Origin: Mucilaginibacter ginsenosidivorans
Lineage (GTDB): Bacteria; Bacteroidota; Bacteroidia; Sphingobacteriales; Sphingobacteriaceae
DNA length: 64,000 bases
Assembly (NCBI RefSeq): GCF_007971025.1
Contig: NZ_CP042436.1
Location: 5,146,001 to 5,210,000 of the forward strand
Reading direction: 5' to 3'
In this document: positions 32,401-58,097 of the stretch, in pieces
Position numbering within the stretch: position 1 is the first letter of the stretch
How the letters are laid out: each line of letters begins with the position of its first letter
Notes under the pieces: generated by a model
The model's database searches: none
Told to the model about the DNA's origin: nothing
The model's input: the letters and a program-made list of their open reading frames with translations, nothing else
Translations under genes and position numbers: made by a program

Positions 32401-34500
32401 AGCCTGGTGTATCCCTGGGGTATCCGCGTGGTACGCACAGTCACAATTTATCGCAGCGGAAGCGCCATAATTTACAGGGTGGATAGTGGCTGGAGAGCCG
32501 ACACCGACGGCACCTATGACTTCTCCTATTTCGATGAATCGGGTACCCACATTGCCAGTCCCTACACTTTCCATCCCGGTATAGTTAAGGGTGTATTCAA
32601 CGTAAAAAATATCGTTGAAAATGACCTGCCGCAGTTTAGCCGCACCTGGTTCAGGACCCCTCCCGGAAACTATATCAACGACGATGGCATCAGCGTACCG
32701 ATACCGGCAGCGGGTATATCAAAAGACATATTATTGCAGCCTATATACTTTGACGCTGATGTGCAGATAGACAATGTGGTGCAAGGCGCCGCCAATGGCA
32801 AGGTGCCCTCGAAGCAAATGCTGGGCTACGTACAGCTTGGCCCCCGCGGTGAGCCGATCTCGCCGGTGTTCTTTAACCAGCTCCTGCAAACGCAGGCCGG
32901 TTCGCTGGGCGGCCCGGTAGATTGTATCATCGATATCGGCAAATCGGGTCAGCAAATGCGTTTAAACAGGGTGGATGTTGCCGGCGCGCCCGACCCTGCC
33001 TCGCCCGATCCGGTTTTTACAGGTACCGCACGCGGTACGGTTATCCTGCCGAAAGATGGTTCGTGGAGCATCGTACAACATGATCTTGGAAGCGGGGCCG
33101 TTTCACCAGTGGATAACAATGCCCCTGTACCACTAATACGCAGGGGCAAATTGCTGGCAAACGGCACTTCGAATTACCCCGCCGAACAGTTACGCCTGGC
33201 CAACCCTGCCGACCTCCTGCGTCCGCCTGCACCAACAACTATAAATTATGGCTTGTTACAAAATACCGGCACCCAGAAAGTGCTGTTCCAGCTTCCGTCA
33301 TATAAGGACGGAGTAAAACAACTCCAGTCGCTGGGCAATGATTTCCCGCTGGCCAAATTCGCCGATGCTTTTCACCTCATCAATTCGACAGGCATATTCC
33401 CCAATCCGCTCGACATTCCGGACATGGATATGTCGAAATTCGGGATCAATATCCTCGACAAAGGCTACCAGCTTTTGAATAAGCTGAGCCCGGGCAACAT
33501 CCTTAAACAAGTATTACCCTCGCCCTGGTATTTTGTCAATACCAAGGATGTCAAACTTTACATAACCTATAACGCCGGTTCAGACAAAAACCTTAATTAT
33601 GATCTGAATTCACTTGCCGAAAGCTGGGTATCGAGCGCAAAAAGTATAACGCTCAATGTCGACCTGGGACCGTTTACCAAAATGGTTTATATAGATGGTA
33701 ATTTCGATTCCGAAAACGGTTCGGACTCAGCCTTTAACCTCCCGCAGTTGCAGTTCGGCCCCGACCTGAAACCGATAGTAGATATTCTGCAAGTGCTCGA
33801 AAGCTTGTCGACCGGCGATTACGCAGCGGTAGCTAAAAAGGCGCTTGAAGTAGCTATGAGCAACGGCGGTGATAACTTTGAATACAAATTCCACGCCGAC
33901 AAGGAAATAGCCACCCTTCATTTCCCTCCTGCCGAACTGGACGGTCCAACCACGCCGTTAAGACTTACGGCCGGGTTAAAAGTTGGGGCCTATTTTAATG
34001 AGGCGCTTTCCATCACCTCCGACCCAAGCAATCTTATCCCGTCTGCCGGTGCTTATTTCGAGTTCGATGGCGGTATGCAGGTAATGTGTGTATCCCTGGC
34101 AGCAGCCACGGTTTATGCAGTAGGGCAGGTGGTTGTTAGGCTTAGCGCTGACGTGAAAACCGGGCCGGCGCTGTACATGAAGTTTGGCTTTGGGGTCGAA
34201 CTGATGGTCGGCCTGCCTGTTGTCGGCGATGTATCGGTGACCTATATGGTAGGTATCGAAATGAACCTGACATCTACCGAGATCAAGATCACGGCCTTCC
34301 TCCTGTTCAAAGGGGAGGCAAGCCTGATTGGTGGTTTGGTAGATATCACCATTACGATAGAAGCCTCGGGCACCATCGACCGTACAGCCGATAAAACAGA
34401 TATGACAGCGCAGGTAACCTTCGCTATCGACATCAGCATATTCCTTGTAATAGATATCAGTTTCTCTAAATCATGGTCAGAGTCAAGGCAAATAGCCTGA
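29437..34500 (+). CDS. Giant protein of unknown function (1687 residues)
   Basis: No signal peptide or membrane anchor is visible at the N-terminus. Residues 113-141 form a Pro/Val/Lys/Thr-rich linker with the repeated PVKTT.PPV. The central part is beta-rich; residues about 940-1010 hold a distinctive block (VERIDFSGYGASMFSNW, then VYPWGIRVVRTVTIYRSGSA). The last ~155 residues alternate hydrophobic and polar residues with many Gly, like amphipathic beta strands (VGLPVVGDVSVTYMVGIEM). I do not recognise a characterised family. It lies 25 bases upstream of another giant gene, and the pair ends at one strong terminator, so the two proteins almost certainly act together. Structural, adhesive or toxin-like roles are possible, but none is shown by the sequence. 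Confidence 0.8.
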   Translation: MQQQDIINLIQELSSSLGQPDAGTGTTALQSQLAPILLNDLQANAIKPVKSATPATPVMPARNKISLGGLFPVSSQLLTDSPGVFKTIGKKAGTTITTITVGDKSGSGILNQLPVIPVKVAPVKTTIPPVKTTAPPVSIPIRNINETISIFLDTDTAHPAVIVPITISIIKIDLPGTPTKYTVTAGSIWILSKLIAATAPVGTYTGLIISGGSITFNQHLDINSNKAVVMPAGAVCTVALNLKQPVNNTASPDNIGIDAMNAQVVLPATFSFTLTEAGIKINGFADASWKLYGSANTFQYDPAAAPVYNPALNGIYIGCNVTAPTFAVSKCDSTFFTVQGSAPILKGYWDLPVATIDITQANTALGTGALAALCLSGMQVSWTGLKGGPVKLAAPLLSATVGIIGVTDLFAGNRYGKQHYDLWSNETTGRLSTADIGYSKQFGLYFLSIQAGEELLSTNVSFIANIDRPVRVDDSPVSVKGSNALLYQAVIPGKKIALLYDSQLLLQNYPPPPNTTLTSVPQQAMALTNGLLTTTPVSGVILFGELSNATTFAQARLILSFGLFNLTPALPDPYAASRLYWGSQRGVTGITATGAANGQVQKTLPLSQVQSLLTGLVSWPQPGAPAKAPQAAKVSFAITPLANTTVAAAGIVKPQKVQTRAVAQPDPGQRWDQATAQFGTPNFCMLDVSTNADLMGVSFSTTNIQAKSDGQSSTIQPVDNSAEADMLQILGMDLATPGKFVRAFMVPEITWEPVVNLTPPAVKSGAQDPPLGWLLFGDDGGPTQLFNNSPKVVPIAPVPVSKFIVDSYTHTPPGNPLITASLFTLPFGMRSMAIMNSGTPQPVNIKPPTLSIEPQDFDITPKNVPNAPQKIVSGGLQIAARGQQDTTQPNVSPSFSGFTVQLRNVLNASGTAANAGVLGPDVDYIFNQQFQPPLIHKVGVPVERIDFSGYGASMFSNWLDPNASIAATSQAKFDVIVGRTSLEIIQVKSLVYPWGIRVVRTVTIYRSGSAIIYRVDSGWRADTDGTYDFSYFDESGTHIASPYTFHPGIVKGVFNVKNIVENDLPQFSRTWFRTPPGNYINDDGISVPIPAAGISKDILLQPIYFDADVQIDNVVQGAANGKVPSKQMLGYVQLGPRGEPISPVFFNQLLQTQAGSLGGPVDCIIDIGKSGQQMRLNRVDVAGAPDPASPDPVFTGTARGTVILPKDGSWSIVQHDLGSGAVSPVDNNAPVPLIRRGKLLANGTSNYPAEQLRLANPADLLRPPAPTTINYGLLQNTGTQKVLFQLPSYKDGVKQLQSLGNDFPLAKFADAFHLINSTGIFPNPLDIPDMDMSKFGINILDKGYQLLNKLSPGNILKQVLPSPWYFVNTKDVKLYITYNAGSDKNLNYDLNSLAESWVSSAKSITLNVDLGPFTKMVYIDGNFDSENGSDSAFNLPQLQFGPDLKPIVDILQVLESLSTGDYAAVAKKALEVAMSNGGDNFEYKFHADKEIATLHFPPAELDGPTTPLRLTAGLKVGAYFNEALSITSDPSNLIPSAGAYFEFDGGMQVMCVSLAAATVYAVGQVVVRLSADVKTGPALYMKFGFGVELMVGLPVVGDVSVTYMVGIEMNLTSTEIKITAFLLFKGEASLIGGLVDITITIEASGTIDRTADKTDMTAQVTFAIDISIFLVIDISFSKSWSESRQIA

Positions 34501-34525: not shown

Positions 34526-37500
34526 ATGGCAGCAAAACTCACCATATTGACTTTCCCTCAAAAGCTATTGGGAAATACGCTTAGTATCAATGCTTTGATC
34601 ATTCCGAGGAACATCGACCCGACACAGCCCCTCGTACCGGGCACATCACCTTTCCAGTCGGCTAACCTGAAACTACAGGCAAAAGTTATTTCGGACCTTT
34701 CCATTTTTCCGACCGACCTTTTGCCTTCCACACCTTTTCCGTTAGCCGGTATAGGCATACCTGCCGGGGCGCCTTCGGTGTTTTCGACACTTGCCGCAAA
34801 GTTCAATGTTTCGGTAGTTGGCGACGCGGCCCCACCGGCCAATTCCAATCACTTCATCCAAAAATATTTACCGCTTAGCTATCGCAACTCATTTAATTTT
34901 ACCAATCCAAGGGTAAAAGAAGCAGTCATCGACGACAGCTACGCTTGTGCCGTCAGGAGTACGGTGGTAAATCCCGCTTTTGTCAATTCCGACCCCACTG
35001 CCGTAAGCTGGGGACAGGTTTTCGCATACTTACTGCGCCAGCCTGATTTGGCGCGATCTGTAGGGTTTATACAATCGTCCACCATAACCATTGACGTCAA
35101 TACGTTTCCGAACGGTGGCTGGCTGTGGATAGACCTTGACAGCGGAAGCGACTACTTTGCAGAGAGCCAGGCCGATAAGAGCCTGGTGAAAAAATATGCA
35201 GCACGCATCCCTGCTTTAGTACCCAATAAGAACCGTAATGTATTCGCGGCCGTGCAGTTCCCGGTACTTTTCAAACAAAATTCAATGGACCCCGACCCGG
35301 TGCCGGCCGGTAATTTCGACCCGATATTTATCGAGGCAAGTGAATACGACACCGGCTTTTCAAAGATCGTACACACTTATCAGCCGGTAAACAACAACTT
35401 TGTTAAAGAAGAAGAGGACCCTGAATCGCTGCCTACCAAAGACCTTGGCATTCGTATCGGCTGGGACGATGAACAGTTACTGATATGGCAGAACCGCCAG
35501 ATGGCCGAGGACCCCGGTAAACCCGGCACGGGCCTGCGTGTCGATTCGCCGCTGGGTGTGGCCAAGTACCGGGTAGACGTGAGACAATCCGTTCCCTCCG
35601 GGCAAACGGCCAATCCATGGACATCACTGGCTATGGTGAAGTCGAAAACGAATATTACCCTTGGCCCCGTACAGATAACACCAAATGGCAAGCAATTTGA
35701 GTTGGGTACCGAAGTTTACCCTTCGCAAATAGATGGCAACACAAGCGCCAATTTCTGGTTGCCGTCCTATTTTACGCAATGGATAGGCAAATCGCTGGTA
35801 TTGTCAGACGCCGATGCAGCCGTAATGCATAAAACCGACCAGGCCGGAGCTGTACAGCAAACGTTGTATGACCCTGTCGGCGAGGGTAGTCCAGGCTTGT
35901 TTTATGGAAATATATATGATTTCAGGGTGCGCATGACCGACTTTACCGGCGGCGGCCCCGTTACTACCCATAAGCCTGATCCGGACAACCAGGGGCCTGC
36001 GCCTATATCAACCATCCATTTTAAACGGTATGTAGTGCCGCAACAGTTGAACTGGCCCGATAAACCCATTAACGGCGATCTGTTCACCGGCACTTCTGTT
36101 AACGTCACCCGCCCAAGATTGGGGTATCCGGCGGTGGTATTCACTAAAAAATACCCGAACGCTATTGCGCTGCTAAAAGCAGATGCAGACGCCGCGGCCG
36201 GGAACCCGACCAGCGGAAAACTGGGCAGGGATTTTGGGCTGGCCGATCCTGATGTAACGCAGGTAGAAATTCTGGTGGAAGTAAAGTCGTTACTAATGGA
36301 CAACCAGTTGTCGGCTAACGGGCGGGAGGCCTACATCCCATTATATACCACGCACCGGTCGTTCCCGGCCGACTTTAACGCGGCTTTGAACATGCCGATA
36401 AAATATGTCGATGCACCGGTCCTCGCGCTTGGCGACCCTACCAACCTGGAAGCTTTGGGCCTGGCCGCCGGGCAGATAGATGCTATCCCGCAGATCGTTT
36501 TGCCAACCTCGAGGGACATCCGCATAACTATGCGCCCAGTTTGCCCGCCCGACCCTAATTATTTTGGCTCGGTGCTGACCAACCGCGGCTTACCCGTTTC
36601 GTTCATGGTTAGAAAGGAATCTGCTATTGAAAAAGACCTTTTCTCGGGCACAGGCGCCGAAAATCAGTTACAGGGTATTTATCTGCAGCCCGATCCCGAT
36701 CCGCTGCCATTGAACAGGGATACGCGCTTTAAAGTTTTGCTGGGCGACCGCAATGCCACTAATCCGCCTGATCTTGTACAACGATTGGCCGGTCAGCTTG
36801 GTGTGAATAATAAAGGATTTACCCTGGTTGGCAAACCCGGCAAACAGGTGCAATTCGGCTGTTCGCGCGCCATACGGCATTCGCTGTCGCCGGATAGCTC
36901 AAACATCACCATCTCAACCAAAAGTGACCTGCTTAATCATTGGATCGTGGCAGTAAAACTGGTACTTAAGCGCGACTGGACCTGGGATGCCGTAAAAACT
37001 GATTGTTTCCTGGTACAGCGGATTATGAAATATAAAGCTGATGGGGCCATTGTAGCAGCCGACCCTGTCGAAAATGTGGGTTATATCAGGCTGGGTAATA
37101 CAGCAAACATCAATTCATTGCTTAATCCCGACCGCTCGGAAATGGACCTGGTTTACCTGGATGCAGTGGAACCGAAACCATTGCCCGGAAAATTCCCTGA
37201 TATTATTGAACTTGAATATATCATTACGCCGCAGTTTATTGCGGCGCCCACAGCCGATAAACCATTGACGCTTAACCTGGAACTACCGGTAACCACCAAC
37301 CCCTCGCAAATTCCGGTACTGGCGTCGGCAGGTATTGCCTTATCCAAATACATCGCCAATGACGATTATTCGGCCACCGAGGCTCGTGAAAAACACCTAT
37401 GGTTCGAATTTAAGGAGCCTCCGGCCGATCCGAATGACAGCTTCTTTATACGTTTGCTCAATTACGCACCCGATCCTTTGCTGGCGCAGCTAACGGCTAA

Positions 37501-38389
37501 TATGGTAGAAAATACCCAGGAACCGGCATTACCTATCGACCCGGAACTGATACGCGTGATAAGTTCGGGTAACAATACGGACGATGAGGCAGGGCTCGAC
37601 GCCATGCAGGAAATGATTCCGGCGGAAGGCTCCGATAAGCATTTTCTTATCCCTCTTCCCCCCGGGCTTCACAATGCCTCGCCCGAATTGTTTGGTCTGT
37701 TCACGTACGAGATACGAGCCGGGCATAAAAAGATATGGAGCACCGCACAGGGGAGGTATGGGCGGCCATTGCGGATAACGGGTGTGCAGCATCCCGCGCC
37801 AACCTTGTTTTGCAGCGTAAACCGCGACGAATTAGCCATCAGCGTAAGCGCTCCTCACGCCGTAGCCGTACTAAATGGGGTTAACGTAACGGCCAGGCCT
37901 CCGCGTACCGATATCTGGGCGCTGCTGTATGCGCAGGTTACCCAGGCCGACGGCCAATCCAACCGCAATATTCTTTTAGGCGAAAAGCTGCTGGTTACTC
38001 CCCAGCCACCGATAGGATTGGTTCCTATTACATTCAAAATCAACCGCGACGCCGTGGTCTATTCGGAAGCCGCCTGGACAAACAACGAAGTATCGCAGAT
38101 ACTGGCCCTGATGGGGCTTCCGGTATCCTCGTCTCTCAGCGTAATTTGTGTAGAAATGATGCCGAACCCGAACACCTATTTAGATATGGTATCTAACACC
38201 AAGGAATCCTATGCTGTTTACGAGTCGAGCCCGATAAGCGTAATTGCGAAACCGCTGGAAGCACGCGAAACCGTCGCGACGGCAAATGCGGTAGCAAACA
38301 ATGTTAGCCCGCTGGGTAATGGCTTAGGCAAATTCCGCATATTGCGTACATCGCCGTTAACACCGGTGCCATTTGTTTGCTGTACATAA
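34526..38389 (+). CDS. Giant partner protein of unknown function (1287 residues)
   Basis: The second gene of the pair, starting 25 bases after the first. It has no signal peptide, no membrane segment and no recognised domain. The sequence is rich in Asp, Pro and short beta-type segments with many NPDP-like turns (PDPDNQGPAP, QPDPDPLPLN), suggesting a chain of beta domains. Cysteines are sparse until the C-terminus, which ends Pro-Phe-Val-Cys-Cys-Thr. Length and layout suggest a large structural or extracellular protein working with the 1687-residue partner. I cannot assign a function. A 15-bp perfect hairpin follows its stop. Confidence 0.8.
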   Translation: MAAKLTILTFPQKLLGNTLSINALIIPRNIDPTQPLVPGTSPFQSANLKLQAKVISDLSIFPTDLLPSTPFPLAGIGIPAGAPSVFSTLAAKFNVSVVGDAAPPANSNHFIQKYLPLSYRNSFNFTNPRVKEAVIDDSYACAVRSTVVNPAFVNSDPTAVSWGQVFAYLLRQPDLARSVGFIQSSTITIDVNTFPNGGWLWIDLDSGSDYFAESQADKSLVKKYAARIPALVPNKNRNVFAAVQFPVLFKQNSMDPDPVPAGNFDPIFIEASEYDTGFSKIVHTYQPVNNNFVKEEEDPESLPTKDLGIRIGWDDEQLLIWQNRQMAEDPGKPGTGLRVDSPLGVAKYRVDVRQSVPSGQTANPWTSLAMVKSKTNITLGPVQITPNGKQFELGTEVYPSQIDGNTSANFWLPSYFTQWIGKSLVLSDADAAVMHKTDQAGAVQQTLYDPVGEGSPGLFYGNIYDFRVRMTDFTGGGPVTTHKPDPDNQGPAPISTIHFKRYVVPQQLNWPDKPINGDLFTGTSVNVTRPRLGYPAVVFTKKYPNAIALLKADADAAAGNPTSGKLGRDFGLADPDVTQVEILVEVKSLLMDNQLSANGREAYIPLYTTHRSFPADFNAALNMPIKYVDAPVLALGDPTNLEALGLAAGQIDAIPQIVLPTSRDIRITMRPVCPPDPNYFGSVLTNRGLPVSFMVRKESAIEKDLFSGTGAENQLQGIYLQPDPDPLPLNRDTRFKVLLGDRNATNPPDLVQRLAGQLGVNNKGFTLVGKPGKQVQFGCSRAIRHSLSPDSSNITISTKSDLLNHWIVAVKLVLKRDWTWDAVKTDCFLVQRIMKYKADGAIVAADPVENVGYIRLGNTANINSLLNPDRSEMDLVYLDAVEPKPLPGKFPDIIELEYIITPQFIAAPTADKPLTLNLELPVTTNPSQIPVLASAGIALSKYIANDDYSATEAREKHLWFEFKEPPADPNDSFFIRLLNYAPDPLLAQLTANMVENTQEPALPIDPELIRVISSGNNTDDEAGLDAMQEMIPAEGSDKHFLIPLPPGLHNASPELFGLFTYEIRAGHKKIWSTAQGRYGRPLRITGVQHPAPTLFCSVNRDELAISVSAPHAVAVLNGVNVTARPPRTDIWALLYAQVTQADGQSNRNILLGEKLLVTPQPPIGLVPITFKINRDAVVYSEAAWTNNEVSQILALMGLPVSSSLSVICVEMMPNPNTYLDMVSNTKESYAVYESSPISVIAKPLEARETVATANAVANNVSPLGNGLGKFRILRTSPLTPVPFVCCT

Positions 38390-40647: not shown

Positions 40648-40658
40648 CCATTAAGCTA

Positions 40659-40699
40659 CTCCTGAGACTGGGCACCACCAGCGATCCCCTGATTAACAG
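40659..40699 (-). other. Decayed 3' half of tRNA-Asn (att-like duplicate of 49734-49775)
   Basis: Aligned by eye, 36 of 42 columns match the part of the intact tRNA-Asn gene from the anticodon loop to the 3' end, with one gap. The orientation is the same as the intact gene. The T-loop TTCGA is lost, so it cannot be a working tRNA. Its placement at the far end of the island is what site-specific insertion at a tRNA 3' end leaves behind. Confidence 0.72.
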
Positions 40700-40926
40700 A
40701 AGAATTTACGGTGTCTTTTCCATTATCGACAAGAAGGCAACCGGCTTATTTAAAGTGCGAATTTAAAATAATGTTAAAAATGATTAGTAGCGCCCTCGGT
40801 GCTCCTTAAATAAGATGAAATTAACTTTACGATAACAATCCGGGCTATATATGATGCAAATATTTAGGTAAGATTAAACATTCATGAAGTTTGATTTTCG
40901 GTGCTAAATCAAGTAAACTGATTTTA

Positions 40927-40934
40927 TAAGTTTG
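40927..40934 (+). promoter_or_regulatory. -7 box candidate of the island operon
   Basis: TAAGTTTG matches the TAnnTTTG consensus exactly, 22 bases before the first ATG of the operon. No TTG lies at the usual 19-21-base spacing, so confidence is limited. Confidence 0.4.
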
Positions 40935-40956
40935 AATTATTGATTTTCCCCTTCGT

Positions 40957-42009
40957 ATGAGAAAGAAGATTTTGTTTATCACCGGCTCGCTGAATCAAAC
41001 TTCTCAAATGCACCAGATAGCCAGCCTGTTACCAGATTACGACTGTTGGTTTAGCCAGATCTTCAGCGATGCGGCCACAGCCAAATTTTTTGAAAAACAT
41101 ACCAGCGTAATCGAGAGTACAGTAATGGCCCGGAGACACCGGGAAAGTACCGAAAAATATTTGCGAGCATTCGGTTGTCAAATAGACTATAAAGCCGTCA
41201 AAAATGAATATAGCCTGGTAGTTTTTTGCAGTGACATGGTGGTGCCTGCAAATTTGCGGCAAACCAAAAAGATATGGGTTCAGGAAGGCATGATCGACAA
41301 AATGACCATTGCAAGCCACATTGTCAAATTTTTTGGATTGCCTATTTGGATGGCAGGAAATACTTCTTTGAATGGCTCAACCAATTTATGCGACATATAC
41401 TGTGCTGCTTCGGAAGGTTATAAAACTGCGCTGTCAGAAAGGGGCGCTGATGAAAATAGGATTATCGTAACCGGGATACCCAATTATGACAATTTAGAAC
41501 TTTTTGCAGACAATGACTTCCCGCATCGCGACTACGTAATGGTGGCCACGACGGACCTGCGGGAAACTTTCCGGTTTGAGAACCGCCCGGCCTTTATCAG
41601 GAAAGCTGTAAAGATGGCTAACGGCAAGCGGCTTTTATTTAAGCTGCACCCTAACGAAAACTTTGCACGTGCCGAAGCTGAGATCAGGAGATATGCTCCC
41701 TCCGACGCGCTTATCTATCATCATGGTAATACCAATGAGATGATCGCTAATTGCTGTGAGCTGATCACGCAGTACTCCACCGTGGTTTATACCGGCATAG
41801 CACTAAGAAAAAAAGTACATTCCTGGTTCGACACCGAAAGCCTATACCGGCAGATGCCTATACAAAACCAGGGCACTTCTGCGGAGAACATTGCAGGGAT
41901 TTGCCGGAGTTATATTGAGTTTGAAGGAAAAGGAGATAAGTTTCTAAAAAACTTCATCTACCGGCCGGTAGATCCTCGGCCAGTGGTTGAAGAATTGATT
42001 GCAAGCTAA
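40957..42009 (+). CDS. GT-B-like glycosyltransferase of a surface-polysaccharide type
   Basis: 350 residues without signal peptide. The two-domain GT-B pattern is visible: an N-terminal Rossmann half (KKILFITGSLNQTSQMHQIA), a linker near 180-195, and a C-terminal half with the conserved LLFKLHPNE (227-234) and TQYSTVVYTGIAL (271-283), in the positions that bind the nucleotide sugar in polysialyltransferase- and CDP-glycerol-transferase-like enzymes. As the only transferase in the operon it is the likely enzyme that transfers the activated sugar acid made by the following genes. Acceptor and exact family are unknown. First gene of the operon. Confidence 0.7.
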   Translation: MRKKILFITGSLNQTSQMHQIASLLPDYDCWFSQIFSDAATAKFFEKHTSVIESTVMARRHRESTEKYLRAFGCQIDYKAVKNEYSLVVFCSDMVVPANLRQTKKIWVQEGMIDKMTIASHIVKFFGLPIWMAGNTSLNGSTNLCDIYCAASEGYKTALSERGADENRIIVTGIPNYDNLELFADNDFPHRDYVMVATTDLRETFRFENRPAFIRKAVKMANGKRLLFKLHPNENFARAEAEIRRYAPSDALIYHHGNTNEMIANCCELITQYSTVVYTGIALRKKVHSWFDTESLYRQMPIQNQGTSAENIAGICRSYIEFEGKGDKFLKNFIYRPVDPRPVVEELIAS

Positions 42010-42019
42010 ACGGAGGTCT

Positions 42020-42832
42020 ATGTCTCAGAAAATATTGATCGTAGTGCAGGCACGCATGTCATCAGGCAGGTTGCCCGGCAAAGTGATGTTGCCGTTGCTG
42101 GGTAAGAGCCTGCTGGCGCGAATGATCGAACGCCTGCAGATGAGCAAATACCAGCCGGAAATCATGATCGCTACCTCCGTTAATCCGGACGATGATATTC
42201 TTGAAAAAGAAGCTAAACATATTGGTGTGGCGTGTTTCAGGGGTAGCTTAAATAATTTACTGGAAAGGCATTATCTGGCGGCGATTAGGTACGGAGCAGA
42301 TATCGTTTTGAAGATTCCCTCAGATTGCCCATTGATCGATCCGCGGATAGTCGACCATGTGCTTGATTTCTTTTTTAAAAACGAAGGCAAGTATGATTAT
42401 ATAAGTAATCTGCACCCGGCTACGTGGCCAGATGGGAACGATGTGGAGGTCATGACGATGTATTGCCTTGAACAAACCTGCCGGTTAGCCACCCGAGCAC
42501 TTGAGCTGGAACATACAACACCTTATATATGGGAAAATCCCGATCAGTTTCGCATCGGAAATGTGGTTTGGGCCACAGGGAAGGACTATTCCATGTCGCA
42601 TCGTTTTACAATAGATTACCAGGAAGATTACGAATTTATTAAACGGGTATACGAACAGCTATATTTTAAAAAAGGCTGTTTTTCTTGTGAGGACATTATC
42701 GACTTGTTGATACAAAAGCCTGATATACAACAGATCAACGCTGAATATGCTGGCGTAAACTGGTATCGGCATCATCTCGACGAACTCAGCACTATATCAG
42801 CCAGACAAACAAAGATCATTCATGCACAATAA
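42020..42832 (+). CDS. SpsF/NeuA-like cytidylyltransferase
   Basis: 270 residues from the ATG at 42020, which follows a GGAGG at 42012-42016; a TTG start 21 bases earlier would overlap the previous gene. The N-terminus carries the nucleotidyltransferase signature QARMSSGRLPGKVM, with KIPSDCPLIDP (about 102-112) and a C-terminal HRFTIDYQEDYEFI. SpsF-group proteins resemble CMP-sialate and CMP-Kdo synthetases. The presumed reaction is CTP plus a keto-deoxy sugar acid giving the CMP-sugar and diphosphate. Its place beside a NeuB-type synthase supports that reading; the exact sugar is unknown. Its end overlaps the next gene by 11 bases. Confidence 0.82.
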   Translation: MSQKILIVVQARMSSGRLPGKVMLPLLGKSLLARMIERLQMSKYQPEIMIATSVNPDDDILEKEAKHIGVACFRGSLNNLLERHYLAAIRYGADIVLKIPSDCPLIDPRIVDHVLDFFFKNEGKYDYISNLHPATWPDGNDVEVMTMYCLEQTCRLATRALELEHTTPYIWENPDQFRIGNVVWATGKDYSMSHRFTIDYQEDYEFIKRVYEQLYFKKGCFSCEDIIDLLIQKPDIQQINAEYAGVNWYRHHLDELSTISARQTKIIHAQ

Positions 42833-43685
42833 ACACTACAGTAATCAGCAATTGGAAAGTATCGCTCTGAATGTAAGAGAGCATATTATCAAAATGTCAA
42901 CAGGCGGCGGCTGCTTTACCGGAGCGTCTCTATCTGCCGTTGATCTGATCGTTTACTTGTATGCCGAATTTTTGAATTTACATAATGATAATTTGATAGA
43001 TCCTGACCGGGATTACCTGTTCCTTTCCAAGGGGCATGATGTACCTGCCCTGTATGGGACTTTCGCGGAGCTGGGGTTGATGGAAAAGGAAAGGTTAGCT
43101 AATCATTTGTCCATAAATGATCATTTATACTGGCATCCGAATACAAATATTCCCGGGATAGAATTTCACTCAGGCTCGCTGGGCCATTTGCCATCGGTAG
43201 CGATCGGCGTGGCGATGGATATTAAAATCAGAGCCGGGAAAAACAAAGTGATTTGCATCCTGGGCGATGGCGAATTGAATGAAGGTTCATGCTGGGAGGC
43301 AGTACTTGTGGCAAATGCCTATAAACTCGATAACCTGGTTTTCGTGATCGATCGTAATAACTTTCAGGCTAATATGCCTACAGAAGAACTGATACCGTTG
43401 GAACCTTTGCAAGATAAATTCATAGCCTTCGGCAGCGCGGTTACCCGTATTGACGGGCATAATTATAATGCATTGCGGGCGGCATTTGAAAACTATCCGT
43501 TTAAAAAAGATAAACTGAACGTGGTAATTGCCGATACCGTCAGGGGGAAAGGATTGCCAAGTATCGAAAGACGGGCCGATCGTTGGTTCTGCAATTTTTC
43601 GGCGGATGAAGTACAGCAGCTTTTACAGGAATTGCACGGCGAACATTCAACTCAATTAACATCAGAAACTTTAGTGGTCAGATAA
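42822..43685 (+). CDS. Transketolase-like protein, N-terminal (thiamine-diphosphate-binding) subunit
   Basis: 287 residues, equal to the first half of a classical transketolase (about 660 residues). The thiamine-diphosphate motif is GDGELNEG (148-155) continuing to NLVFVIDRNNFQ; SKGH (69-72) and HSGSLGHLPS (116-125) provide the usual His residues. The chain stops before the Pyr domain, which is encoded by the next gene two bases later. Two-subunit transketolases of this type occur in secondary and polysaccharide clusters. It should transfer a two-carbon ketol unit between sugars, so it probably builds or modifies the sugar precursor. Confidence 0.9.
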   Translation: MHNKHYSNQQLESIALNVREHIIKMSTGGGCFTGASLSAVDLIVYLYAEFLNLHNDNLIDPDRDYLFLSKGHDVPALYGTFAELGLMEKERLANHLSINDHLYWHPNTNIPGIEFHSGSLGHLPSVAIGVAMDIKIRAGKNKVICILGDGELNEGSCWEAVLVANAYKLDNLVFVIDRNNFQANMPTEELIPLEPLQDKFIAFGSAVTRIDGHNYNALRAAFENYPFKKDKLNVVIADTVRGKGLPSIERRADRWFCNFSADEVQQLLQELHGEHSTQLTSETLVVR

Positions 43686-43687
43686 AT

Positions 43688-44623
43688 ATGTCATACGAGG
43701 AATTACTTACAGAAATGGGTGTTGCGGATGAACGGTTTATCGCGATGACAGCAGAAAACCGGGCATTAATACGCAAACTACCGCAGGTATTGGGCAATCG
43801 TTTTATAGACACCGGGATAACTGAACAGACGATGATAGGCGCAGCCGCGGGTTTGGCATTGCGCGGCCGAATACCTGTTGTTCACGCTTTGGCTTCTTTT
43901 TTATCGATGCGTGCGTTTGAGTTTATACGTACCGATGCAGGCATACCCGCATTGCCTTTAAAGCTAAGTGCATTTATACCCGGTTTACTATCTGACGCCA
44001 ACGGGCCGACACACCAGGCTATTGAGGACATTTCTATTATGCGGGGTATCCCCAATATGACAGTTTTTGCACCTGCCGATGAAGATGACATGGTAAAAAT
44101 GCTGCCTCAAATATGGGCATCCCCCCAGCCTGCCTATACACGTATCAATACCCGGCAAACCAGCTATGTTCATGAACCATTTGAATTAGGAAAAGCCGAG
44201 GTGATATCAAAAGGCACTGATGTCATGATTCTTACTTATGGGCTCCTTTTTGAACAAGCCATGATCGCGTTGGATATGTTGAAAGACGAGGGCTTATCTG
44301 TGGGCCTTGTCAATATGCGCAGTTTGAAACCGGTTGATGAACAAGCCATTCTCGAAGCTGCAAATAGTAGGTTATTAGTTACTCTTGAAGATCATTTCCT
44401 GACCGGCGGTTTATATACCATAGTTGCCGAAGTATTATTAAAGCATCAAAAGACTGCAAATGTCCTGCCCTTTGCTCTAAATGAAAAATGGTTTAAACCT
44501 GCACTATTGCCTGCAGTAATGCAACATGAGGGTTTCAACGGTAAGAAAATAGCAGAAAAGATACTTGGTTATCAGACCGAACATATTCAACCCGAAATTT
44601 TAAAACCCCAGTTTGCTGAATAA
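43688..44623 (+). CDS. Transketolase-like protein, C-terminal subunit
   Basis: 311 residues carrying the pyrimidine-binding and C-terminal domains. The catalytic glutamate is Glu46 in DTGITEQTMIG, which activates the thiamine cofactor. GPTHQAIEDI (about 105-114) and the C-terminal domain start near residue 180 (SKGTDVMILTYG). It starts two bases after the stop of the N-terminal subunit, so expression is coupled. Together they make one transketolase-type enzyme. A 1-deoxyxylulose-5-phosphate synthase role is unlikely, because that enzyme is a single chain, but I cannot give the donor and acceptor. Confidence 0.9.
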   Translation: MSYEELLTEMGVADERFIAMTAENRALIRKLPQVLGNRFIDTGITEQTMIGAAAGLALRGRIPVVHALASFLSMRAFEFIRTDAGIPALPLKLSAFIPGLLSDANGPTHQAIEDISIMRGIPNMTVFAPADEDDMVKMLPQIWASPQPAYTRINTRQTSYVHEPFELGKAEVISKGTDVMILTYGLLFEQAMIALDMLKDEGLSVGLVNMRSLKPVDEQAILEAANSRLLVTLEDHFLTGGLYTIVAEVLLKHQKTANVLPFALNEKWFKPALLPAVMQHEGFNGKKIAEKILGYQTEHIQPEILKPQFAE

Positions 44624-44635
44624 AACACCAACTAT

Positions 44636-45982
44636 ATGCCTAACAAAATAGGATTTAACGAGAATTACCCGGATATCACCCAGTCTGATAAACTTTATCA
44701 ACGCGCCCTTAAAGTGCAAAAGCCGGTTACCCAAACCCTGGCAAAGGGGCCGGGGCAATTTACAAAAGGCGCCGCTCCAAAATACCTGGCAATGGGCAAA
44801 GGCTCACATGTTTGGGATGTGGATGGTAACGAGTATATCGATTTTAATGCGGCTATTGGACCCTTATCGTTAGGATATGCCTACCCGGCTGTTGATCAGG
44901 CCATAAAAGATCAATTGGAGGACGGCATCACCTTTTCCTTAATGCATCCGCTCGAAGTAGAAGTTGCCGAACTGATACAGGAGATCATTCCCAATGCCGA
45001 AGCGGTAAAAATTGCCAAAACGGGCGCTGATGTATGTTCGGCTGCTATACGGGTAGCCAGGGCATTTACCGGGCGCGATAAAGTGTATTGTTGCGGTTAC
45101 CACGGCTGGCACGATTGGTACATCGGTATTACCAGCCGCAATGCAGGTATACCGGGAGCTATACAAGATCTCACTTATACATTTGAATATAACGATATAG
45201 AATCGATAAAAGCTGCGCTTGATGAGACCATAGCTGCTTTAATATTAGAGCCTTTTATTTTTGAAACCCCTGCACCCGGGTTTCTCCGGGAGCTTGCGGC
45301 TGTGTGCAAAGAAAACGGCACCTTATTGATATTCGATGAAATGTGGACAGGCTTTCGCATTGCCATAGGTGGCGCTCAGGAATATTTCAACGTAAACGCC
45401 GACCTGGCCGTATTTTCAAAAGCTTGCGCCAATGGTATGCCCATCGCTTTATTGACTGGCAGGGCCGATGTGATGGAGCTTTTCAACTCACAGGTGTTTA
45501 GTTATACTACATTCGGAGGCGAAGCGTTGTCATTAGCCGCTTGTAAAGCCACCATTAATGAGCTGGTTGACAAAAATGTGCCGCGGTACTTAGATGAAAA
45601 AGGGGCATTGTTAAAAGACGGCTACAACCAGTTAGCCATTGAAATGGGTATGGATAAGTATACCCGTTGCATTGGTTATAACTGCCGTACCATGATAACC
45701 TTTACCCCTGAAGCAGGTAATGGTCTGGAAGTAAAAACACTGATGCAGCAGGAAATGATTAAGCGCGGGATATTATGGGCCGGCTTTCATAACATGTGCT
45801 ATAGCCATACAAATGAGGATATCCAATATACCCTTTCTGCTTACCGTGATGTAATGCCAATTATGAAAGAGGCCATTGAAAGCGGTGACATCAAAAAATA
45901 TTTAAGAGGAGAAGTACTGGAAGCGGTATTCCGTAAGGTAAGCAATTATAATATTAAGCCAAAAAATACGGCAGTAAGCTAA
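44636..45982 (+). CDS. Class III aminotransferase, glutamate-1-semialdehyde-aminomutase-like
   Basis: 448 residues of the fold-type I PLP family. The cofactor lysine is Lys262 in FSKACANGMP; Asp234 in IFDEMWTGFR binds the PLP nitrogen, and GYHGWHDWYIG (154-164) is typical of the glutamate-1-semialdehyde-aminomutase group. A haem-synthesis role is unlikely in this setting; members in glycan clusters add an amino group to a keto sugar or shift an amine along a chain. Here it may act on the precursor of the sugar acid. The next gene begins two bases after the stop. Confidence 0.85.
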   Translation: MPNKIGFNENYPDITQSDKLYQRALKVQKPVTQTLAKGPGQFTKGAAPKYLAMGKGSHVWDVDGNEYIDFNAAIGPLSLGYAYPAVDQAIKDQLEDGITFSLMHPLEVEVAELIQEIIPNAEAVKIAKTGADVCSAAIRVARAFTGRDKVYCCGYHGWHDWYIGITSRNAGIPGAIQDLTYTFEYNDIESIKAALDETIAALILEPFIFETPAPGFLRELAAVCKENGTLLIFDEMWTGFRIAIGGAQEYFNVNADLAVFSKACANGMPIALLTGRADVMELFNSQVFSYTTFGGEALSLAACKATINELVDKNVPRYLDEKGALLKDGYNQLAIEMGMDKYTRCIGYNCRTMITFTPEAGNGLEVKTLMQQEMIKRGILWAGFHNMCYSHTNEDIQYTLSAYRDVMPIMKEAIESGDIKKYLRGEVLEAVFRKVSNYNIKPKNTAVS

Positions 45983-45984
45983 AA

Positions 45985-46788
45985 ATGGAATTGTTTTCAT
46001 TGCATCAAAAAACGGCCATAGTTACTGGTGCACTCGGGTTGATCGGTAAAAAGCATTGCGAAGCTCTCGCAACGGCTGGCGCTGATGTAGTAGTTGCAGA
46101 CATTGACGGCGAACGTGCCCAAAAGTTTGCAAAGCAATTGGGCAGTAATCACCTGGGTATTGGTCTTGACGTAACCAGCAAAGCATCGATAACCCAGGCC
46201 CTGGACGAAACCCTTAATAAATACGACACCATTGATGTGCTGGTAAACAACGCGGCTATCAATGATATGTTCGAAAATCCGGCGTTGGCAAAAGAGCAGT
46301 CGGCCTTTGAGAACTATCCGCTTGAAGCGTTCCAAAAATCGTTAGATGTGAATGTGACCGGCGTCTTTTTGTGCTCGCAGGTATTCGGATCAAAAATGGC
46401 AGAGCAAGGTGGGGGTAGTATTATTAATATCGCTTCAACTTACGGCATGGTTGGCCCGGATCAATCTATTTATCGTGATGAATGTAGGACGCAGACTTTT
46501 TATAAATCGGCAGCATACCCGGTTACTAAGGGGGCTGTTATAAATTTCACCCGGTTTTTAGCAGCTTATTGGGGCAATAAAGGAGTGAGGGTGAATACAC
46601 TTTCACCAGGTGGGGTAGAGAACGGGCAAAACGAGTTTTTTATACACAATTATTCAGCAAAAACATTACTGGGCCGTATGGCCAAATCATCTGACTATCA
46701 GGGCGCGCTTATTTTCCTGGCCAGTGAAGCATCTGCTTATATGACAGGTGCCAACCTGGTGGTAGACGGAGGATGGACAGCAATTTAA
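45985..46788 (+). CDS. Short-chain dehydrogenase/reductase
   Basis: 267 residues, classical SDR length. NAD(P)-binding TGALGLIG is at 14-21, NNAA at about 88-91, and the catalytic set Ser151 (INIAST), Tyr178 and Lys182 (YPVTK). The C-terminus carries the usual NLVVDGGWTAI. An insertion before the catalytic Tyr (YRDECRTQTFYKSAAYP) is typical of SDRs found in flagellin or surface-sugar clusters. It probably oxidises or reduces a hydroxyl of the sugar precursor, preparing a keto group for the aminotransferase or reversing it; that link is inference. Confidence 0.85.
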   Translation: MELFSLHQKTAIVTGALGLIGKKHCEALATAGADVVVADIDGERAQKFAKQLGSNHLGIGLDVTSKASITQALDETLNKYDTIDVLVNNAAINDMFENPALAKEQSAFENYPLEAFQKSLDVNVTGVFLCSQVFGSKMAEQGGGSIINIASTYGMVGPDQSIYRDECRTQTFYKSAAYPVTKGAVINFTRFLAAYWGNKGVRVNTLSPGGVENGQNEFFIHNYSAKTLLGRMAKSSDYQGALIFLASEASAYMTGANLVVDGGWTAI

Positions 46789-46800
46789 ACCAATAAAATC

Positions 46801-48240
46801 ATGAAAGATATTTTAAAAGCAAAAGCATCACGTATCAAACTATTGATCACCGACTGTGACGGCGTATTGACCGACGGCGGTGTTTATTATGGCGAAGATG
46901 GCGAAACCTTAAAAAAATTTAACATTCGTGATGGCATGGGGGTAGAACGCCTGCGCAAACTGACCGCGATCGAAACCGCTATTATTACCGGTGAAAAATC
47001 GCCGTCACTGATACAACGGGCACAAAAACTTCAGATCACGGAATTACACTTGCTTGCAAAAGATAAACCGGCTGTCCTAAAAGAAATATTATCACGCCTG
47101 CAACTGGCAGCTGAAGAAGTGGCCTACATAGGTGACGATTACAACGACCTGGATATAATGAAACTGGTTAGGTTTACAGCAAGTCCGGCAGATGCATTAC
47201 CTGCTATAAAGTCACAGGTAGACTATGTATGCGAAAACAAGGGCGGAGAGGGTTGTTTCAGAGAATTTGCTGAGTTGATCATCGATCTGAAAAGTCCTTT
47301 TGCTTTGCCCGGTCAAAGAAACGAGGTGATAACGTTGAACAACGGAAGAAAAATTGGTAAAGGAGAGCAATGCTATATCATAGCCGAGATAGGTATCAAT
47401 CATAACGGCGATCTGGAAACAGCTAAAAGGCTCATTGATGAGGCTGTTGCAGCTAAGGCTGATGCTGTTAAATTCCAGAAACGCACCCCGGAAATATGCG
47501 TTCCGAAAGATCAATGGGAAGTGATGCGGGATACACCATGGGGTCGAATGACCTACATCGATTATAAACGCAAAACGGAATTTGGCATTGCCGAATATGC
47601 AACAATAGATCAATACTGTAAAAAAGTGGGCATCGATTGGTTTGTATCGGCCTGGGATGTGCCATCTGTTGATTTTATGGAACGGTTTGATACCATAATG
47701 TACAAGCTGGCCTCCGCTTCGCTTACTGATTTTGCATTGATCGAACGGATATTGGAAACAGGCCGGCCATTAATGCTTTCAACCGGAATGTCGACCATGA
47801 AAGAGATTGAAAATGCATTGGCATTTATCGAAGTTTTTAGTCCTGGTTACCCCCTGTTTGTAGCACATTCAACTTCATCATACCCTTGCAAACCGGAAGA
47901 GCTCAATTTAAAAATGATTCAAACGCTCGAAAATAAATTTCCGGGTATCCCTATCGGCTATTCAGGTCACGAAACAGGCCTGGCTACAACCGTAGGTGCT
48001 GTTGCAATGGGGGCAACTTTTGTTGAAAGACACTTTACGCTTGACCGCGCGATGTGGGGATCAGATCACGCCGCGTCGGTTGAGCCCCAGGGCTTCCAGC
48101 GCCTGGTACGTGATATAAGAGATGTAGAAACTGCTGCAGGTGATGGCATAAAAAAGGTTTATGAATCTGAACTGGCCCCAATGAAAAGATTGAGGGTAAA
48201 TATTAGCGACGAGTATAAGGAAAAGCCTTTAATGAGTTAA
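46801..48240 (+). CDS. KdsC-like phosphatase fused to NeuB-like sugar-acid synthase
   Basis: 479 residues in two enzymes. Residues 1-168 are a type C0 HAD phosphatase like KdsC: Asp18 and Asp20 in TDCDGVLTDG, TGEKS (63-67), Lys in AKDKP (86-90) and GDDYND (111-116). Residues about 175-460 are a NeuB TIM barrel: IIAEIGINHNG (193-203), VKFQKRTP (223-230), LSTGMSTM (326-333), GYSGHE (386-391) and ERHFTLDRAMWG. The usual C-terminal SAF domain is missing. The expected chemistry is condensation of phosphoenolpyruvate with a sugar phosphate followed by dephosphorylation, giving a keto-deoxy sugar acid. In Bacteroides thetaiotaomicron such a phosphatase and synthase are separate genes that make KDN. 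Confidence 0.88.
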   Translation: MKDILKAKASRIKLLITDCDGVLTDGGVYYGEDGETLKKFNIRDGMGVERLRKLTAIETAIITGEKSPSLIQRAQKLQITELHLLAKDKPAVLKEILSRLQLAAEEVAYIGDDYNDLDIMKLVRFTASPADALPAIKSQVDYVCENKGGEGCFREFAELIIDLKSPFALPGQRNEVITLNNGRKIGKGEQCYIIAEIGINHNGDLETAKRLIDEAVAAKADAVKFQKRTPEICVPKDQWEVMRDTPWGRMTYIDYKRKTEFGIAEYATIDQYCKKVGIDWFVSAWDVPSVDFMERFDTIMYKLASASLTDFALIERILETGRPLMLSTGMSTMKEIENALAFIEVFSPGYPLFVAHSTSSYPCKPEELNLKMIQTLENKFPGIPIGYSGHETGLATTVGAVAMGATFVERHFTLDRAMWGSDHAASVEPQGFQRLVRDIRDVETAAGDGIKKVYESELAPMKRLRVNISDEYKEKPLMS

Positions 48241-49185
48241 ATGCCACTGGAAAAAGTAGTTACTGTAACCACACTTATACTCGCCGTTTGGGTGGTCTTT
48301 ATTATTGCATGGGAACGAATTTCGCCTTATCGCAAGGGATTGCCTTTTTTTCGCGAAGGTTTTTGGGTGGATTTGGTATGGTATACCATTATTCAAAGCT
48401 ATGTGCTTAAGATCGTGATTTTTGATTACATCATAATGCCGCTGCAAAGAAGCTTTGACTGGTCGGACATCCAGTTTGTGAAACATTGGCCTGTTGTCGT
48501 ACAGGTGTTATTTTTCCTGGTTACGCATGATCTGTATATTTATCTTTTCCACCGTTTCCAGCATTCCAACAAACTGTTCTGGCGCATTCATGAGGCACAC
48601 CATTCGGGAAAAGAAGTTGACTTTTTAGCCGGTTCGCGTTCACATGTGCTCGAAATTATCATTAATCAAACTATAGAGTTTGCACCGATCATTATTTTAG
48701 GAGCCGATCCGGTAGTGGTTCCTATAAAGGCGATGCTCGATGCGATGTTCGGCATGTTCATCCATGCCAATATTAAGATTAAGCTGGGTAAATTTAAATA
48801 CCTCCTCAATTCTCCCGAATTGCACTTATGGCATCATGCCAATTACAGGGAAGTTTTCCATGCTAATTTTTCAACCAAGTTCGCTTGTTGGGATTACCTA
48901 TTTGGTACCGTTTATGATCCGGGCTATTCTCCGGGCAATGAAGCTGAAAATTGGGGATTATACTATGACTATCCCAAAGACTACTTTTTACAGCATGCAT
49001 TCTCGGTCAAACGATTTCCCGAGCAAGTATTATTTAAATATAAGTGGTTTAGGTGGTATTATAATTTAAGGCCCCGGATGGTGCGGTTCGTCAAAGAGGT
49101 ATGGAAAGTCGTATTAAAGCCTAAACAGTCAGCTCGTCACCGGCCAAAAATGCCTGGGTTGTATGTGTTCGAAGAAGAAGGCTAG
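48241..49185 (+). CDS. Membrane di-iron hydroxylase (sterol desaturase/fatty acid hydroxylase family)
   Basis: 314 residues starting directly after the stop of the synthase gene. Hydrophobic segments are near residues 5-23, 44-66, 85-102 and 140-170. The histidine clusters of the family are present: His96-x7-His104-x3-His108, His117-Glu-Ala-His120-His121, His175, and His195-Leu-Trp-His198-His199. These bind two irons and hydroxylate or desaturate lipid-like substrates using oxygen. Its tight coupling to the sugar-acid operon suggests it hydroxylates a lipid carrier, a lipid-linked product or an acyl group attached to the sugar. The target is not indicated. Confidence 0.85.
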   Translation: MPLEKVVTVTTLILAVWVVFIIAWERISPYRKGLPFFREGFWVDLVWYTIIQSYVLKIVIFDYIIMPLQRSFDWSDIQFVKHWPVVVQVLFFLVTHDLYIYLFHRFQHSNKLFWRIHEAHHSGKEVDFLAGSRSHVLEIIINQTIEFAPIIILGADPVVVPIKAMLDAMFGMFIHANIKIKLGKFKYLLNSPELHLWHHANYREVFHANFSTKFACWDYLFGTVYDPGYSPGNEAENWGLYYDYPKDYFLQHAFSVKRFPEQVLFKYKWFRWYYNLRPRMVRFVKEVWKVVLKPKQSARHRPKMPGLYVFEEEG

Positions 49186-49670
49186 CGTCTGACGCAATCA
49201 CTGTAGCCCCGGCAATACGGGGAATCCATGGTACCTAAACCTATCTGTCCGGCACCAATTATCAAAACAAACTCGCCTGACTTTACACGTGCACGTTTTA
49301 TTACGTGCGCACCAATAGCCAATGGTTCAGCCGGTGCCAGCTCATCAACCTCAAACCCCTCTCCATAAATCAGCGTTTGCAGAGGCACCGTCAGGCATTC
49401 GGCCATACCACCATTAACATGCACACCACACCCTTAATATTCACGCAAAAGTTCAGACCTCCACTGCGGCAGGGAATGCAATTGCCACAATTAAAATAAG
49501 GCATCAATGACACTACTTGTTCTCCTGATGTAAAACCGGGTGTGTTGTCAAAAGCCCCTAAATCACCGGCTAACTCATGTCCAAATACACGGGGATATTC
49601 AAATAGGGTAGCATGCCTTCGAAAGCGTGTGAATCAGTTCCACGGGATACCACCATTGGCACCAACGTGC
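49182..49670 (-). pseudogene. Decayed zinc-type alcohol/polyol dehydrogenase
   Basis: Minus-strand translation gives recognisable pieces of a zinc-dependent dehydrogenase in several frames: GTDSHAFEGMLPYLN, then EYPRVFGHELAG, the structural-zinc segment NCGNCIPCRSGGLNFC, then HVNGGMAECLTVP and LIIGAGQIGLGTM. At least two frame changes are needed; one is caused by a 5-bp duplication (gtgtg gtgtg) near 49430. The C-terminal half is absent, the remnant ending at the hydroxylase gene. The intact family would oxidise a polyol or sugar acid such as L-idonate or L-galactonate. It lies against the tRNA end of the island. Confidence 0.85.
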
Positions 49671-49695
49671 TTTATCACCCCAAACAAGCTGTTAT

Positions 49696-49733
49696 TGAAA
49701 AAATAAAACCCCGCAGATCTTGCGGGGCTTTTG
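49696..49733 (-). terminator. Terminator of tRNA-Asn
   Basis: A 7-bp stem (49709-49715 with 49721-49727, loop gatct) is followed on the minus strand by ttttattttttc. It begins directly after the tRNA 3' end, as expected. It may also work in the plus direction. Confidence 0.8.
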
Positions 49734-49807
49734 CTCCTGAGGCTGGGCTCGAACCAGCGACCCTCTGATTAACAGTCAGATGCTCTAACCGGCTGAGCTA
49801 CTCAGGA
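49734..49807 (-). tRNA. tRNA-Asn (anticodon GTT)
   Basis: Read on the minus strand: acceptor stem TCCTGAG pairs with CTCAGGA; D-arm contains AGCTCAGCCGGTTAGAGC; anticodon loop CTGTTAA with GTT at 49771-49773; T-arm has GGTTCGAGCC. The discriminator is G and CCA is not encoded. Length is 74 nt. It forms the right edge of the island. Confidence 0.97.
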
Positions 49808-58075: not shown

Positions 58076-58097
58076 CTAATGCATGACAAATATAACC

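Follow-up and report, generated by a model that had tools for sequence, protein, structure and literature searches.

A split transketolase with a rebuilt acceptor site in a mobile gene cassette of Mucilaginibacter ginsenosidivorans, tentatively assigned to a CMP-ulosonate pathway

The genome of the soil bacterium Mucilaginibacter ginsenosidivorans (assembly GCF_007971025.1, contig NZ_CP042436.1) contains, within the stretch of 64,000 nucleotides analysed here (positions 5,146,001 to 5,210,000, referred to as the window, whose own numbering is used for its features), two adjacent genes encoding the halves of a transketolase, designated TK-N and TK-C. The pair retains the thiamine diphosphate (ThDP)/Mg site of transketolases and has lost the residues by which these enzymes recognize their substrates; judged from aligned sequences, it is a distinct subfamily of the transketolase fold whose acceptor site has been rebuilt. 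The two genes belong to a compact cassette, and the linked set, its co-inheritance and the rewritten site can be stated directly and with strong confidence. The pair can be considered, tentatively and with somewhat less than even confidence, a two-subunit ThDP enzyme re-tooled for a non-classical aldehyde within a mobile pathway for an ulosonate activated with cytidine monophosphate (CMP).

The transketolase pair and its substrate-recognition site

Both open reading frames (ORFs) are intact and separated by a 2-base spacer (43686-43687), in agreement with the earlier sequence-only reading, which had placed the two halves two bases apart; the first 11 bp of TK-N are shared with the cytidylyltransferase ORF that precedes it.

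42822..43685, + strand: TK-N, transketolase-like N-terminal half with the ThDP diphosphate/Mg domain, 287 amino acids (PF00456, 5e-22)
43688..44623, + strand: TK-C, transketolase-like C-terminal half with the pyrimidine and C-terminal domains, 311 amino acids (PF02779/PF02780)

The Pfam domain Transketolase_N is found in TK-N (5e-22), Transket_pyr (2e-25) and Transketolase_C (1e-20) in TK-C, the two chains of a split transketolase fold thus being encoded by adjacent genes. Their best matches in the PDB are 6yak for TK-N (1e-48) and 6yaj for TK-C (5e-43), which together form the split transketolase of Carboxydothermus hydrogenoformans; division into two chains is therefore normal for a transketolase and no sign of a broken gene. 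A broken or frameshifted gene was also rejected because the split architecture, solved in the PDB, is kept in the loci compared. As regards a viral origin of the pair, no contig encoding it was found in IMG/VR.

The GDG motif lies at residues 148-150 of TK-N and the catalytic glutamate at residue 46 of TK-C. GDG148, N179, H72 and H105 are invariant in 78 homologues of TK-N, and Glu46 in 81 homologues of TK-C; in the human numbering, Asp155, Asn185, His77, His110 and Glu366 are invariant across about 80 homologues of the pair, which thereby has the ThDP/Mg site of transketolase (EC 2.2.1.1), GDG...N plus the catalytic Glu. The sequence-only reading had claimed that the thiamine and catalytic residues are kept, and this applies to the cofactor site but not to the residues of substrate recognition.

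Seven substrate binding and recognition residues of transketolase have been described, in L. salivarius His28, His263, Ser384, Arg357, Arg520, His461 and Asp469 (PMC4601599). The same seven are His30, His263, Ser386, Arg359, Arg528, His469 and Asp477 in the yeast numbering and, by alignment, His37, His258, Ser345, Arg318, Arg474, His416 and Asp424 in the human one, which is used below. Work on the yeast enzyme by Nilsson et al. in 1997 is reported to have shown that these seven bind the aldehyde acceptor together with its phosphate and C2 hydroxyl, and yeast His69 and His103 (human His77 and His110) reportedly belong to the donor side.

None of the seven is left in the window's pair. His37 is replaced by Phe (F32) and His258 by Trp/Phe (W255/F256), both in 78 of 78 TK-N homologues, while in TK-C His416 is replaced by Ile (I97), with I, V or F at that position across 81 homologues, and Asp424 by Asn (N105), compared over the same 81. 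The Ser345 position is a gap or Arg, that of Arg318 has no counterpart since the TK-C chain begins downstream of it, and that of Arg474 (yeast Arg528) falls in a 2-residue deletion which is alignment-sensitive, making this loss less certain. The substitutes for the seven canonical residues are invariant or nearly so in about 80 homologues, Phe32, Trp255, Phe256, Arg25 and Asn105 being invariant among 78-81, and the pair of the gammaproteobacterium Methylomagnum shows the same changes. Three further split transketolases from the bacterial family to which the window belongs (L081, L083, L085) keep His37, His258, His416, Asp424 and Arg474. Since all seven acceptor positions differ, an assay of the pair with ordinary sugar phosphates may fail. 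A split pair in a sugar locus of Eubacterium (L064:9084-10873) has His37 and His258, but Ser/Met at His416/Asp424, and by these residues it is another acceptor-altered lineage.

The source genome is complete (5.35 Mb), its nearest relatives being Mucilaginibacter, and encodes a separate canonical full-length transketolase (C1:3932274-3933272; PF00456, 492 bits) which keeps His37, His77, His110, His258, Arg318, Ser345, Glu366, His416 and Asp424. A third, weak PF00456 match is a 648-residue frame, probably DXS. The pair was therefore rejected as the housekeeping transketolase and regarded as dedicated. The sequence-only reading had called it a complete dedicated transketolase, a view to be abandoned if the pair were the only such enzyme of the cell, which it is not; it is dedicated to its operon, although "complete" does not extend to the substrate site.

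The cassette: gene content, distribution and insertion site

The remaining genes of the cassette and the tRNA sequences at its borders are as follows.

40957..42009, + strand: GT1, a GT-B-fold protein of 350 amino acids, candidate CMP-ulosonate glycosyltransferase (NeuC/TagF/polysialyltransferase fold group)
41999..42832, + strand: SpsF-type CTP_transf_3 nucleotidyltransferase, candidate CMP-ulosonate synthetase (PF02348, 3e-27)
44636..45982, + strand: class-III pyridoxal phosphate aminotransferase, PRK06209/GSA-aminomutase-like (PF00202, 1e-47)
45985..46788, + strand: short-chain dehydrogenase/reductase (SDR) (PF13561, 2e-48)
46801..48240, + strand: fusion of a KdsC/YrbI-type phosphatase of the haloacid dehalogenase (HAD) type (about residues 1-165) with a NeuB synthase (about 190-465) devoid of the SAF domain
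48241..49185, + strand: FA_hydroxylase-family membrane di-iron enzyme (PF04116, 2e-26)
49733..49807, - strand: tRNA-Asn (GTT), its 3' end toward the cassette (ARAGORN)
40656..40699, - strand: degenerate, att-like tRNA-Asn 3' fragment at the opposite cassette edge (91% over 23 bp)

In about 50 Bacteroidota loci with unrelated flanks the eight functions occur in a constant order: GT1, CMP-transferase, TK-N, TK-C, class-III aminotransferase, SDR, phosphatase plus NeuB, and the FA_hydroxylase-family enzyme. This synteny is seen in Mucilaginibacter, Arcicella, Fibrisoma and Saprospira-type genomes. At a threshold of E < 1e-70, TK-N was detected in 40 of 395 sampled Bacteroidota genomes, representing 26 of 170 genera; 20 further loci drawn from the positive genomes (TK-N identity 59-71%) contain the block, complete in most of them. 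A plasmid of the methanotroph Methylomagnum ishizawai carries GT1, CMP-transferase, TK-N (60% identical to that of the window), TK-C, aminotransferase, SDR, NeuB and HAD genes consecutively, and lacks the hydroxylase. The most persistent sub-block consists of TK-N, TK-C and the aminotransferase, and where the block is broken (genomes G321, G376, G247 and G328), NeuB (64-66%), HAD (53-56%) and GT1 (45-50%) of the cassette type have been retained in the genome. The C chain and GT1 were both looked for in 47 genomes of the family: GT1 was found in 14 of 14 with the pair (C chain >75% identity) and in 0 of 33 without it (Fisher p 3e-12, a nominal value, since the genomes are related). The cassette genes depend on each other. 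Two genomes (G014 and G121) have a second GT1 copy each, on another contig.

Almost no sequence family was found for GT1. Its AlphaFold2 model (mean pLDDT 88.7) was matched by VIA-align to NeuC-type epimerases (Z 18), TagF (15) and the polysialyltransferase 5wc6 (14.5), and across 72 homologues the EG (110-111) and HP (231-232) motifs and S274, the latter within S(T/S), are invariant; these motifs resemble those of bacterial sialyltransferases. Judging from the model, GT1 would be a CMP-ulosonate transferase, with an epimerase as the alternative. The SpsF-type enzyme is a divergent CTP_transf_3 member in which R24 and K28 of the RLPGK motif are invariant in 76 homologues; the other CTP_transf_3 gene of the genome, located elsewhere and a stronger match, is probably KdsB. 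The aminotransferase, with K262 and D234 conserved, scores 373 bits with NF004856, under the cut-off of 486. Haloarchaeal, Shinella and phage-record relatives of this enzyme alone lie in other contexts, with no transketolase adjoining in the three records viewed. S151, Y178 and K182 of the SDR are invariant in 69 sequences, and the protein has a partial likeness to PtmA of flagellin modification (137 bits, cut-off 350).

The phosphatase domain of the fusion protein exceeds the TIGR01670 cut-off (154 against 107 bits). Its synthase domain, the sole NeuB encoded in the genome, confirms the NeuB-like gene of the sequence-only reading (PF03102, 7e-76); K224, Q226, K302, S305, H390 and H411 are conserved, which gives a TIM barrel with the residues for phosphoenolpyruvate (PEP) and metal, and the catalytic D/K/Q/H residues are conserved in the fusion as a whole. 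Pfam found no SAF (antifreeze-like) domain in NeuB, setting it apart from classical N-acetylneuraminate synthases, and the unfused homologues are mostly 291-321 amino acids long. In classical sialic acid synthases the SAF domain contacts the N-acetyl group. Phosphatase and NeuB are fused in most Mucilaginibacter and unfused in the Cytophagales, Saprospira-type and Methylomagnum loci, while in Nonomuraea gerenzanensis (L128:9630-11822) a single 730-residue protein fuses CTP-transferase, HAD-like and SAF-less NeuB domains. An Azospirillum relative of NeuB is located in a legionaminic-type locus, and NeuB alone is therefore no marker of the cassette. The His clusters of the hydroxylase are invariant in 23 sequences; it reaches only 103 bits with OlsE (NF052566, cut-off 475) and can be assigned to the wider FA_hydroxylase family.

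The cassette, of 9.1 kb, is bracketed by the intact and the decayed tRNA-Asn 3' ends, the fragment aligning over about 44 bp with one gap. In 61 congeners a query made of the tRNA-Asn and the neighbouring PfkB kinase gene always found a match, usually as a single stretch, and since many congeners have additional 45-46 bp copies of the tRNA-Asn 3' end, this locus looks like a genus-wide insertion hot spot. No integrase is present among the ORFs of 40656-49735; the interval from the last gene to the tRNA contains the remains of a zinc-type (MDR) alcohol dehydrogenase with a frameshift (49200-49680, - strand). In most other carriers the cassette resides at different sites with no tRNA nearby, so that insertion at the tRNA accounts for the present copy but not for the spread as a whole. 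The glycan operon in which the sequence-only reading had placed the pair is thus a mobile eight-gene cassette in a tRNA-Asn insertion site rather than part of a larger glycan locus. No defence system was matched by PADLOC. Elsewhere in the window, two consecutive giant ORFs lie upstream (29437-34500 and 34526-38389, of 1687 and 1287 amino acids), with no match to phage proteins in PHROGs, and two tandem paralogous ORFs of 557 amino acids (56297-57970 and 58083-59756) look by eye like M1-type aminopeptidases (HESGHEWFGN motif).

The proposed pathway and its alternatives

The product of the cassette is probably a CMP-activated 3-deoxy-2-ulosonic acid containing an amino group; we infer every substrate, the order of the first four steps and the lipid target. 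The TK pair would transfer a two-carbon ketol unit onto an aldehyde, giving R-CH(OH)-CO-CH2OH, whose new ketone would be aminated by the class-III aminotransferase; the SDR would then oxidise the terminal CH2OH, or adjust another carbon, yielding a 2-amino aldose to be condensed with PEP by the SAF-less NeuB. Subsequently the KdsC-like domain would remove the phosphate, the SpsF-type enzyme would form the CMP-sugar, and GT1 would transfer the sugar, most likely onto a membrane lipid, which the FA_hydroxylase-family enzyme would hydroxylate and which, in relatives, would be flipped by a protein of the SMR or LPG type.

The beginning of this scheme has, by analogy, a documented parallel in the azinomycin route, in which the AziC5/C6 transketolase adds two carbons to an aldehyde and amination by AziC1 or C7 follows (PMC9570651); a class-III aminotransferase is also the first enzyme of bacterial azasugar synthesis (PMC8382821). 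No gene of the UDP-N-acetylhexosamine (UDP-HexNAc) route (NeuC/LegG/PseG-type, dehydratase) exceeds the Pfam cut-off in the cassette, although genome-wide these were not each searched for. The proposal of the sequence-only reading, that the sugar precursor is built by two-carbon transfer and not taken from UDP-HexNAc, is consistent with this and with the co-inheritance of the pair with NeuB and the GT-B gene. A UDP-HexNAc-free amino-ulosonic route encoded by a mobile cassette, with ketol transfer to a non-phosphorylated aldehyde, class-III amination and delivery of the CMP-sugar to a membrane aminolipid, is possible, if on balance doubtful. The cassette can be regarded as a new variant of ulosonic-acid biosynthesis with hypothetical substrates and step order. 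No description of a split transketolase in glycan or nonulosonic acid loci was found in open-access papers, subscription journals lying outside this coverage.

The target of the cassette is probably a lipid, because the cassette ends with an FA_hydroxylase-family enzyme and because SMR, LPG_synthase_TM and ornithine-lipid genes adjoin it in relatives. In 40 loci an SMR-family gene follows the hydroxylase directly (e.g., L010:15547-15924), forming a ninth cassette gene which is missing in the window, with only a 28% match elsewhere in the genome; ArnE/F, relatives of the SMR proteins, act as flippases for an aminosugar linked to a lipid. An LPG_synthase_TM gene immediately precedes GT1 in four other loci. 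An OlsF equivalog stands beside the cassette in L147 (718 bits, cut-off 620), and L163 and L164 have homologues of it; OlsA/OlsB-like pairs adjoin the cassette in L151, L166 and Methylomagnum, in the last of which an LplT gene overlaps the HAD gene. The source genome has an OlsF-like gene below the cut-off, far from the cassette.

Several points weigh against the proposed pathway. By Z, the top structural match of GT1 is the NeuC epimerase group (18, as against 14.5 for the polysialyltransferase), the cassette in the window includes neither a kinase nor an N-acyltransferase, and the ornithine-lipid genes adjoin it only in some relatives (about three lineages) and not in the window. Free 2-amino aldehydes are unstable, and the SAF-less NeuB and the phosphatase could make a Kdn-type sugar from mannose-6-phosphate with no transketolase branch. 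Moreover, the presence of the phosphatase implies that the product of NeuB is phosphorylated, yet the residues that grip phosphate are missing from the TK pair, so the product of the TK pair and the substrate of NeuB may not share one line. For this reason a model with two branches is a serious rival, if a rather unlikely one: NeuB, phosphatase and CMP-transferase would turn an ordinary hexose or pentose phosphate into a Kdn- or Kdo-like sugar, and the TK pair, aminotransferase and SDR would form a separate amino-alcohol, the lipid or aglycone receiving that sugar (e.g., a 2-amino-1,3-diol from a hydrophobic aldehyde). Ketol transfer onto an aldehyde followed by amination would indeed yield a 2-amino-1,3-diol, the acceptor-site replacements are hydrophobic (F32, W255/F256, I97) with all phosphate ligands lost, hydroxylase, flippase and acyl-lipid genes surround the cassette, and the triple fusion of Nonomuraea combines the sugar functions without a transketolase; however, the transketolase and aminotransferase genes run in the same direction as the sugar genes within a single block, sugar clusters contain relatives of the aminotransferase, and Bacteroidota have serine palmitoyltransferase for sphingoid bases.

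The pair might also work in the shortening direction, cutting two carbons off a modified ketose to supply a short aldose to NeuB. Transketolases are reversible, the loss of Asp424 and of the phosphate contacts would make sense if an amino group were added ahead of cleavage, and the split transketolase of aminoshikimate (AHBA) biosynthesis has been proposed to act in this direction; as the gene order, with the transketolase before the aminotransferase, and the azinomycin precedent fit extension better, and the cassette has no kanosamine-type genes, this is considered unlikely. Use of another donor, pyruvate or an acyl donor, in an acyloin or DXS-like reaction, could be suspected from the NCBIfam scores of TK-C, slightly higher with DXS (161 bits) than with transketolase (157 bits). 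It is made quite improbable by the invariance of the transketolase histidines H77 and H110, by the position of the DXS arginine that aligns with H416, which is not Arg in the window's pair, and by the maximum-likelihood tree of the C chain, in which the cassette proteins, including that of Methylomagnum, fall on one side of a branch with support 100/99, away from DXS, long branches restricting any finer reading. Finally, although the fold and cofactor motifs would also suit an ordinary split transketolase of the pentose phosphate pathway lying by chance beside a glycan operon, this is hardly credible in view of the canonical enzyme encoded elsewhere, the rebuilt acceptor site and the strict co-inheritance with NeuB and GT1.

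Should the proposed pathway, with ketol transfer preceding NeuB, be correct, sialic-acid-like sugars would also arise by two-carbon transfer and transamination, beyond the remodelling of UDP-HexNAc or the use of sugar phosphates, and an acidic glycolipid would have gone unrecognised in a phylum that is very common in the environment. The transketolase subfamily is also a natural experiment, with the donor side retained and the acceptor side rewritten, useful for the engineering of C-C bond enzymes. The compactness of the cassette and its presence in cultured strains of Mucilaginibacter, Arcicella and Fibrisoma make knock-out, lipidomics and in vitro reconstitution practical.

Comparison with known systems

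The split transketolase of C. hydrogenoformans resembles the cassette pair in its two-chain division and ThDP/Mg residues, but keeps the equivalents of His37, His258, Ser345, His416 and Asp424, of which the cassette pair has none. The same pairing of transketolase and aminotransferase occurs in a Streptomyces cluster with the amino-group carrier LysW (L130), whose TK-N is about 43% identical to that of the window; unlike the cassette, this cluster keeps His37, His258 and His416, has an aminotransferase of the DegT type instead of class III, and is not adjoined by NeuB or CMP-sugar genes. Azinomycin AziC5/C6 is likewise a two-subunit transketolase working with an aminotransferase; together they lengthen a non-phosphorylated aldehyde by two carbons and then aminate it (PMC9570651). 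With the ornithine and glycine lipid systems (OlsF, OlsA/OlsB, OlsE) the cassette shares a member of the FA_hydroxylase family, and in some relatives Ols genes adjoin it, but its hydroxylase stays under the OlsE cut-off and the window contains no Ols synthase.

The Kdn-9-phosphate synthase, phosphatase and CMP-Kdn synthetase of Bacteroides thetaiotaomicron correspond to the cassette in the NeuB-type synthase and the KdsC-like phosphatase, the cassette HAD domain scoring 150 bits with NF058599 (cut-off 180); the Kdn route, however, needs no transketolase, aminotransferase or SDR. Finally, the cassette has in common with the routes to nonulosonic acids (sialic, legionaminic, pseudaminic) a NeuB, a CMP-transferase and possibly a sialyltransferase-like GT-B enzyme. 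It differs from them in its SAF-less NeuB and in having, in place of a recognised UDP-HexNAc epimerase, dehydratase and N-acetyltransferase, a transketolase, a class-III aminotransferase and an SDR.

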